A DNA stretch of 36,793 nucleotides, taken from NCBI GenBank assembly GCA_030692905.1, contig JAUYBT010000168.1, positions 1 to 36,793 on the forward strand. Direction: 5' to 3'. The notes beneath the pieces are model-generated. The model worked only from the letters and a program-made list of their open reading frames with translations, did no database searches and had not been told where the DNA came from. The position numbers and the translations under genes were made by a program. This stretch comes from Bacteroidales bacterium (GTDB lineage Bacteria; Bacteroidota; Bacteroidia; Bacteroidales; VadinHA17). This document shows, in pieces, positions 33,850 to 35,734 of this stretch (position 1 is the first letter of the stretch; each line of letters starts with the position of its first letter).

Positions 33850-34266
33850 CTATTTCTCCCTATGAAATAACATATTCAGAGCCCTGTCGAACAGTGTAAG
33901 TATCAGAATCCCAATAAAAACATATATCAGCAACCCAGGGAGATTAAAATTAAAGATTGATGTAAGATTAATCTCGGGCAAAGAAACCTTAATATTTTTA
34001 ATAAGTTCTACCACCGGAAGTGCTGATAAATCAGTTTCACTTCCGGGAATGAGAAAAGCCGCAACTATCAATAAAATTGTAATAGCGGCAGAAATTACAG
34101 GGACAAGGTTTTTATTCCGTAACCTGCCGGCAGCCTTCAAAAGTGCGGCCTCGAGTTGAATGCGCATCATTACTTTTGAAGTAAATCCTTCAGGGGCTTT
34201 TTCAATCCTTTCAGGATTAATATACTGCTTTAGAAGATCTTCCTTATATTTTTCCTGTTTATTCAT
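33850..34266 (-). CDS. Probable anti-sigma factor, membrane protein
   Basis: A 138-residue protein with no named domain that I recognise. The N-terminal 55 residues are charged and helical (KEDLLKQYINPERIEKAPEG), suitable for binding a sigma factor, followed by membrane segments near 56-76 (PVISAAITILLIVAAFLI) and 107-127 (LLIYVFIGILILTLF), with a short extracytoplasmic loop between. It lies 62 bases downstream of the ECF sigma gene on the same strand, the common place for an anti-sigma factor. There is no zinc-binding HxxxCxxC motif, so it would be a non-ZAS type. The functional call rests on context and topology. Confidence 0.6.
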   Translation of the reverse strand: MNKQEKYKEDLLKQYINPERIEKAPEGFTSKVMMRIQLEAALLKAAGRLRNKNLVPVISAAITILLIVAAFLIPGSETDLSALPVVELIKNIKVSLPEINLTSIFNFNLPGLLIYVFIGILILTLFDRALNMLFHREK

Positions 34267-34304
34267 CAGTTAATAATTTATTTGTTTAAGGTCTGATGGA
34301 ACCA

Positions 34305-34361
34305 CACATGATTGAAAATGAAATATTCTCAATAGTGATTGTAATTTTGATCAATCATGTG
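34305..34361. repeat. 11-bp inverted repeat at the sigma/anti-sigma junction
   Basis: CACATGATTGA (34305-34315) and TCAATCATGTG (34351-34361) are perfect complements across 35 bases. One arm lies within the last codons of the sigma gene, the other in the intergenic gap. Confidence 0.65.
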
Positions 34362-34937
34362 GGTTTCATGATATATTAATTTTTTCTTTTCAACCTTTTC
34401 AATTATTTCCAACATCTTCTGCCTCGCCCTGAAAAGCTTCACTTTAATATTTGATTTGCTTATTCCGGTTAAATCCGATATTTCATCGGTACTCATCTCC
34501 TCATAATAGTAGAGACTTATTAATCCTCGTTCTTCTTCGTTTATTTTCTGCAGGGCAAAGTTAATCAAAGAACTTCTGTATTCCTTTTCTGCCTCTTCCT
34601 CGCTTGTGTTGTTCCCTATAAAATCTGTAGCATCAGCCGGAAAATCCTCAAGGGAAAGGACTCCTTTTTTCTTAATTCGTACATGCGAAATCGCAGTATT
34701 ATAAACTATCCGGTAAAGCCAGGTGGCAAAACTACTTTTCATTTTAAACCCTTTCAGTGACCTGTAAACTTTTAAAAATGAATCCTGTGCAACCTCTTCA
34801 GCCTCTTCATGGTTGCCGCATATCCTGAAAGCAAGGTTATATGCTTTATTCTTATGCCGGTCGACTATATAACTGAAAGCATTACTCTTTCCGGCCAACA
34901 CCTGCTCTATATATAATATGTCGCCTTTATAATCCAT
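34329..34937 (-). CDS. ECF sigma factor
   Basis: A 202-residue extracytoplasmic-function sigma factor. Region 2 spans about 10-85, with NAFSYIVDRHKNKAYNLAFR, EEAEEVAQDSFLKVYRSLKG, and FATWLYRIVYNTAISHVRIK. Region 4 spans about 125-180, with INEEERGLISLYYYEEMSTD followed by SKSNIKVKLFRARQKMLE. A short acidic linker (FPADATDFIGNNTSEEEAE) lies between. It recruits polymerase to a small regulon in response to an envelope or stress signal, probably with the downstream membrane protein as anti-sigma. A GTAACC-N16-CGTC element immediately upstream suggests autoregulation. If correct, the transcript begins about 5 bases before the ATG. Confidence 0.92.
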   Translation of the reverse strand: MDYKGDILYIEQVLAGKSNAFSYIVDRHKNKAYNLAFRICGNHEEAEEVAQDSFLKVYRSLKGFKMKSSFATWLYRIVYNTAISHVRIKKKGVLSLEDFPADATDFIGNNTSEEEAEKEYRSSLINFALQKINEEERGLISLYYYEEMSTDEISDLTGISKSNIKVKLFRARQKMLEIIEKVEKKKLIYHETHMIDQNYNHY

Positions 34938-34948
34938 TCTGCCTGTTT

Positions 34949-34974
34949 GACGAGTAAAGTTATGAATTGGTTAC
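34949..34974 (-). promoter_or_regulatory. Candidate ECF-type promoter of the sigma gene
   Basis: On the minus strand GTAACC (34974-34969), 16 bases, CGTC (34952-34949), of the AAC/CGTC form of ECF promoters. The start codon is only 11 bases beyond CGTC, so the leader would be very short. Confidence 0.55.
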
Positions 34975-35008
34975 CGGAATAAATAAAATAATTATTAATC
35001 ATTTTTTT

Positions 35009-35034
35009 GTAACCGGGTTCCGGGAACTATAGTC
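35009..35034 (+). promoter_or_regulatory. Candidate ECF-type promoter of the divergent DUF6249-like gene
   Basis: GTAACC (35009-35014), 16 bases, AGTC (35031-35034), the same spacing and -35 as the divergent promoter. A GTTCC-G-GGAAC palindrome (35017-35027) fills the spacer. Confidence 0.6.
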
Positions 35035-35073
35035 TAAAGGTGCAAAAAGAGTTTTTAACCAATAATTAAAGTC

Positions 35074-35418
35074 ATGGAAACATTAGTTGCTTTTATCGCA
35101 TTATTCGCTACAGTATTTGGCATTATGTATGTTCACTACACAACACGTAACAAAGAAAGATTGGCACTCATTGAGAAAGGTGCAGATGCCAGCCTGTTCA
35201 ACACGGGTAAAGAGGGGCATAAATTTACATTTGCCTGGGGTAAGTTGACTCTGAAGATCGGAATGCTTTTTATGGGCATTGCATTAGGTATAATGGCAGG
35301 GGCAATTCTTTCCTACGCCGGGGTACTTGATGAAGATGCTAATTACCCGGCAATGATCTTCTTCTTCGGCGGACTCAGCCTTGTATTGTTTTATGTTATT
35401 GACAGAAAAAACAAATAA
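35074..35418 (+). CDS. Small membrane protein, DUF6249-like
   Basis: The 114-residue protein has an N-terminal membrane helix (about 3-22; LVAFIALFATVFGIMYV), a short charged stretch with ALIEKGADASLFN, and two more helices (KIGMLFMGIALGIMAGAIL and PAMIFFFGGLSLVLFYVI) ending in RKNK. The RLALIEKG motif and layout match the DUF6249 family, membrane proteins common next to ECF sigma factors in Bacteroidota; function is unknown. It diverges from the ECF operon and has a promoter of the same form, so it is likely a regulon member, or takes part in sensing or adapting to the signal. It is followed by a terminator, so it is a single-gene unit. Confidence 0.8.
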   Translation: METLVAFIALFATVFGIMYVHYTTRNKERLALIEKGADASLFNTGKEGHKFTFAWGKLTLKIGMLFMGIALGIMAGAILSYAGVLDEDANYPAMIFFFGGLSLVLFYVIDRKNK

Positions 35419-35703: not shown

Positions 35704-35734
35704 ACTAGTTGAAACCTTACCAATAATTAAAACC

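Follow-up and report, generated by a model that had tools for sequence, protein, structure and literature searches.

Paired divergent promoters point to a probable autoregulated ECF sigma factor module with a dedicated DUF6249 membrane protein target in Bacteroidota

Of the relatives with a solved structure, SigW of Bacillus subtilis is the best match to the sigma factor described here; it is likewise an ECF sigma factor with an adjacent membrane anti-sigma factor, RsiW (PDB 5wuq). RsiW carries a full zinc-type four-helix domain, and its helix 4, EAPADFTANVMAKL, matches APEGFTSKVMMRI in the protein encoded next to the present sigma gene; in contrast to RsiW, the latter has the helix-4 part only and two transmembrane (TM) helices, and the regulon predicted here is tiny. 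RsiW itself has one TM helix. CnrY, the class II anti-sigma factor of CnrH in Cupriavidus, is part of a nickel/cobalt system. It has a short N-terminal anti-sigma segment whose second helix lies on sigma region 2 (PMC7406223). In known complexes of class I anti-sigma domains it is the fourth helix that contacts sigma region 2, which is believed to prevent core binding (PMC7406223). For sigma-F of Caulobacter crescentus, the available sections of the published account describe the same -35 element (GTAACC-N16-CGAA), a membrane anti-sigma factor, NrsF, in the sigma operon, a small regulon and two promoters mapped by 5' RACE, and name no DUF6249 target (PMC3511200). Its -10 element is CGAA whereas the present locus has NGTC, and NrsF, a protein with paired cysteines, crosses the membrane with six TM helices compared with two in the present protein (PMC3511200). 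Membership of ECF16 / sigma-F was considered and rejected on the NGTC -10 element and the two TM helices of the anti-sigma factor. Within Bacteroidota, the mapped SM6 ECF promoters of Flavobacterium psychrophilum have a CGT -10 box and include those of an ECF sigma/anti-sigma pair; type IX secretion genes are among the targets of SM6, and DUF6249 is not reported there (PMC9723704).

The window, i.e. the whole stretch of DNA analysed here, comprises 36,793 nucleotides of a Bacteroidales bacterium and is a single contig of a 2.74 Mb assembly that is 88% complete. Its nearest relatives in the genome collection used are Bacteroidales metagenome assemblies. Rfam gave no match anywhere in the window. 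An ECF sigma gene and a gene for a DUF6249 membrane protein diverge from an intergenic spacer of 136 bp, and the locus contains the following features.

33850..34266, minus strand: putative anti-sigma factor gene, 138 aa, assigned from position, TM layout and profile matches; the protein has a cytoplasmic N-terminus of about 50 residues with APEGFTSKVMMRI (RsiW helix 4-like) and TM helices at about 55-72 and 109-135
34273..34372, no strand: MITE-like palindromic repeat insertion, arms 34299-34315 and 34351-34367
34329..34937, minus strand: ECF sigma factor gene, 202 aa, with Sigma70_r2 and Sigma70_r4_2
34946..34974, minus strand: predicted ECF-type promoter of the sigma operon, -35 GTAACC at 34974-34969, N16, -10 CGTC(AAA) at 34952-34949
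34955..34962, minus strand: possible primary-sigma -7 box TAACTTTA (TAnnTTTR) overlapping the sigma-side spacer, tentative, conserved in the genus only
35009..35037, plus strand: predicted ECF-type promoter of the DUF6249 gene, -35 GTAACC at 35009-35014, N16, -10 AGTC(TAA) at 35031-35034
35074..35418, plus strand: DUF6249 membrane protein gene, 114 aa, assigned by Pfam; the protein has a TM helix at the N-terminus, a conserved TRNKERLALIEKGADAS segment and two further TM helices
35439..35470, plus strand: terminator-like hairpin and T tract, 3' of the DUF6249 gene

The sigma protein matches Sigma70_r2 (3e-17) and Sigma70_r4_2 (5e-12), nothing else exceeds its cut-off except an overlapping Sigma70_r4, and the protein scores above the cut-off of the sigma70-ECF superfamily model. 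It thus has only sigma domains 2 and 4, as in ECF (group IV) factors. ECF promoters are recognized by AAC in the -35 and CGT in the -10 element (PMC8103513), and both elements were found before the sigma factor's own gene. The original prediction had read two promoter strings of this AAC/CGTC form from the spacer, and both are present exactly where it placed them, one on each strand. By these sigma features the module would work like ECF modules of the SigW/RsiW type.

The motif owes its weight to where it lies rather than to how rare it is. GTAACC-N16-[AC]GTC occurs three times in the 2.74 Mb assembly, two of these being the spacer pair, compared with ten occurrences of the reversed control pattern. 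When the pattern was widened, it was no commoner than its own control. Genome-wide enrichment was thus discarded as evidence, and location and conservation were used instead. Orthologue sets were gathered via the sigma protein and via DUF6249, and the motif was not used for selection. In the sigma orthologue set, GTAAC[CG]-N15/16-NGTC points toward sigma in 77 of 85 non-redundant upstream regions, compared with 0.16% per upstream region in shuffled sequences. Where an adjacent divergent DUF6249 gene is present (n=62), the motif points toward DUF6249 in 60 loci and is found on both sides in 59. The spacing between -35 and -10 in this set is 15 or 16, with one case of 14. Across Bacteroidota, 137 non-redundant loci with divergent sigma and DUF6249 genes were compared, and 121 of them have an ECF-type motif on both sides; many of the loci are related, so that the counts are non-independent. 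The sigma-side motif is absent in eight of the 137 and the DUF6249-side motif in 12. Directly 3' of GTC, W-W-A follows at nearly all sites. The motif also stays with DUF6249 where the gene order differs: DUF6249 genes at least 1.4 kb from sigma (loci L008/L042, L011, L012, L021, L100 and L112) keep their own motif at -60 to -68, and in some families DUF6249 and sigma share a same-strand unit that DUF6249 opens, several of these having the motif before DUF6249 (e.g. L162, L221, L230). Loss of the motif from relatives that keep the gene pair, named with the original prediction as an outcome that would refute it, is not the pattern observed across the phylum. Judged by location and conservation, the paired promoters are not a chance match.

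The two promoters also vary together. For this comparison the pattern accepted any base at the second -35 position and immediately before TC. The second -35 base is the same on both sides in 120 of the 121 loci (107 T/T, 12 A/A and 1 C/C), the variants changing GTAAC to GAAAC or GCAAC. Shuffling gave a mean agreement of 95.9, and none of 10,000 shuffles reached 120; shuffles ignore relatedness, so the tree of the sigma protein is the more cautious measure. Parsimony on this tree assigns three changes to the GAAAC state, and well-supported branches force two or more of them. The switch between GTAAC and GAAAC is seen separately inside the genus of the window (L009) and in a deep clade, in both promoters each time. 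The -10 box is G/G in 119 of 121 loci and A/A in the two exceptions, which carry an ATC variant on both sides and fall in separate parts of the sigma tree. Counted as independent events, the -35 co-variation comes to about two changes and the -10 co-variation to one or two. The sigma columns that best split the T and A -35 classes include 160, 162, 166 and 167, in or beside the region 4.2 recognition helix, and the top class-separating column also lies in or beside this helix. Most of the A class falls in a single clade, so this association between sigma residues and -35 class may serve as supporting evidence only. The proposal that the sigma factor regulates itself and drives the divergent gene is well supported by both the conservation of the motif on the two sides and the co-variation of the copies.

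The number of predicted targets is small. Sites in the genus of the window were tallied by hand with the pattern GTAACC-N15/16-HGTCWAA, giving 66 sites in 28 genomes with DUF6249 and 13 in 30 genomes without it. Sigma was found in 25 of the 28 and in one of the 30, and the 33850 protein shows a similar pattern of presence. Genome G055, the sole genome of the genus with sigma but without DUF6249, has retained the sigma-side site. Beyond two sites per genome the remainder is about at background, so the predicted regulon in the genus consists of the sigma operon and DUF6249. In the genome of the window, three more pattern sites (C11:7750, C82:5867 and C195:4693) are within background and were rejected as signs of a larger regulon, as was the C101 site, also within background and by eye inside a SusD-like gene. 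The search suggested with the original prediction thus found the motif kept in the same spacer of relatives, with further sites elsewhere in the genome at background. The site at G000:C11:7750 (L114) reads GTAACC-N16-TGTCTTA; by eye, an OmpH/Skp-like gene begins some 150 bp further on, which may be due to chance.

Other ways of reading the spacer can be weighed against these patterns. The GTAACC hexamers are inverted repeats that face each other across the spacer, and the GTAACC...GGTTAC pair could therefore be one operator for a dimeric transcription factor acting on both genes rather than two -35 boxes. However, the distance between the two motifs ranges from 5 to 284 bp across loci, while that from GTAACC to GTC stays within 14-16 bp and is nearly always 15-16. 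This fixed box spacing with a variable inter-motif distance indicates two promoters and removes the single operator from consideration; the -10 box is, moreover, conserved as strongly as the hexamer, and a single motif is kept where DUF6249 has moved away from sigma. The operator reading is accordingly held to be extremely improbable. It is scarcely more credible that another ECF sigma factor of the same genome reads both promoters in place of the adjacent one. Many ECF paralogues are present (19 first-look candidates) and ECF cross-talk is a known phenomenon, but the sites track the presence of the adjacent sigma gene within the genus, co-vary with its region 4.2 residues and precede its own gene. 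A third reading, in which the primary sigma factor accounts for basal, or even most, transcription of the two genes while the ECF motif is an accessory promoter, draws on the TAnnTTTR sequence known as the -7 box of Bacteroidota primary-sigma promoters (PMC9723704). This box occurs in 16 of 19 sigma-side spacers of the genus, with 1.1 expected. On the other hand, it is found in none of 23 DUF6249-side spacers of the genus and in none of 98 sigma-side spacers outside it, no conserved -33 TTTG was seen by eye, and identity of the genus spacers possibly reflects shared ancestry. Such a promoter would add basal expression and would not replace the ECF promoter. This reading is unlikely, though it deserves more weight than the two before it, and the TAACTTTA box is tentatively regarded as an overlapping primary-sigma basal promoter.

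The protein at 33850 had been proposed as the anti-sigma factor, and its position, gene overlap, two-TM layout, match to RsiW helix 4 and full-domain relatives agree with that assignment. A gene for a two-TM protein directly follows sigma in nearly all loci, mostly overlapping or close to the sigma stop codon, and the N-terminal 50 residues or so carry an (A)P-x-x-FT-x-x-VM-x-x-I motif. A 58-member profile of this short family matches the RsiW anti-sigma factor (E 0.014) at its fourth helix EAPADFTANVMAKL, RsiW residues 50-79, although a designed coiled-coil chain outscores RsiW in that search by matching just the hydrophobic part. The syntenic proteins of deeper Bacteroidota are mostly about 165-195 aa long, with a similar motif around residue 57 and TM1 near 80-93. 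A profile of ten such long-form relatives matches RsiW residues 15-77 (E 2.3e-4), one of them (L180) is above the zf-HC2 cut-off, and the long-form profile aligns with the short family over the motif at an hhalign probability of 97.9. The structure model of the 33850 protein (pLDDT 72, pTM 0.29) has a helix at 28-48 and agrees on helices, being too weak for more. The profile matches and this modelled helix place a fourth helix just before the membrane, as in class I (ASDI) anti-sigma domains. The N-terminal three-helix bundle of that class is present in relatives such as L171, L180 and L181; in the window protein only about 23 residues precede the helix-4 motif, and the Hx3Cx2C zinc motif is absent. 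With the bundle missing, the protein is not classed as a full class I member. It could instead be some other envelope protein of the operon, given that no Pfam or NCBIfam model scores above its cut-off and that the zinc motif and first three helices are missing. Against this stand its position, overlap and topology together with the helix-4 match and the profile link to full anti-sigma relatives, which make that alternative improbable; the 33850 protein is very probably an anti-sigma factor reduced to the helix-4 part. Within Bacteroidota, the anti-sigma partners of loci L157-L242 range from a full zf-HC2-type four-helix domain to the helix-4-only form.

The DUF6249 assignment (PF19762) scores 55.8 bits against a curated cut-off of 33. 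A sigma gene of the same kind is found on the same short stretch in 80 of 88 DUF6249 loci examined across the phylum. A fold search with the structure model, which is of moderate confidence (pLDDT 75), returned no match with E below 1. No description of a link between DUF6249 and a sigma factor was found in the literature searched, where a single paper on an unrelated subject names DUF6249; the 2021 ECF classification may contain a prior mention. DUF6249 is also reported in the control genomes Caulobacter vibrioides and Haloferax volcanii. Since DUF6249 is the only detectable outside target and the three-gene association is fixed, the protein is expected to be an envelope effector or an anti-sigma feedback partner. 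Its being a membrane effector is given slightly better than even chances, while a role as feedback or sensing partner is plausible at somewhat longer odds. A broader version of the latter role, entertained with similar reserve, is a phylum-wide three-gene switch with a regulon of sigma and DUF6249, in which DUF6249 would be a third member of the circuit (sensor or anti-sigma feedback partner) rather than a stress effector, and the anti-sigma factor would have shrunk from full class I to helix 4 in the lineage of the window and its short-form relatives, making it an intermediate between the class I and class II types.

The -10 element lies 11 nt from the ATG on the sigma side of the window compared with 39 nt on the DUF6249 side, and GTC is 8-13 nt from the sigma ATG in 101 of 107 GTAAC-class loci. 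ECF transcription starts lie about 5-9 nt downstream of the -10 element. The sigma mRNA is therefore predicted to be nearly leaderless, and the DUF6249 mRNA is expected to have a leader of about 25-40 nt. Immediately ahead of ATG, ACCAATAATTAAA occurs both in the DUF6249 leader (35050-35073) and in that of the transaldolase-like gene further downstream (35715-35734), and may be a translation leader common to the two. The repeat at 34273-34372 is a palindrome of about 100 bp with 17 nt arms, and the assembly contains it at six places (74-100% identity). In close relatives the sigma and anti-sigma genes overlap by 8 bp, whereas in the window the repeat is inserted and the genes are 62 bp apart. 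The insertion adds 11 residues to the C-terminus of the window sigma factor and may have altered or abolished sigma/anti-sigma coupling in this strain.

Taken together, it is highly likely that the locus is an ECF module that regulates itself and has a single dedicated target outside, DUF6249. In the proposed mechanism, the membrane-bound anti-sigma factor (33850) would release the sigma factor, and sigma-RNA polymerase would transcribe both ways out of the 136 bp spacer from promoters of the form GTAACC-N15/16-NGTC-WWA. The transcript on the sigma side would yield more sigma and anti-sigma factor, i.e. positive feedback together with its own brake, and the opposite one would encode DUF6249. 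Given conservation and co-variation, the promoter steps are very probably correct, and so is the anti-sigma step, which relies on homology to class I anti-sigma domains with the fourth helix retained. The label "stress switch" in the original prediction is a supposition from the ECF class.

For one lineage of ECF sigma factors, the locus provides a promoter consensus at sequence level that is valid across Bacteroidota. The co-varying promoter pairs with matching region 4.2 changes form a natural data set for -35 specificity, and the series from zinc-type to helix-4 anti-sigma factors shows how such domains can be reduced. An unstudied family of DUF6249 membrane proteins is tied to a single regulator, and its function can be tested through sigma.
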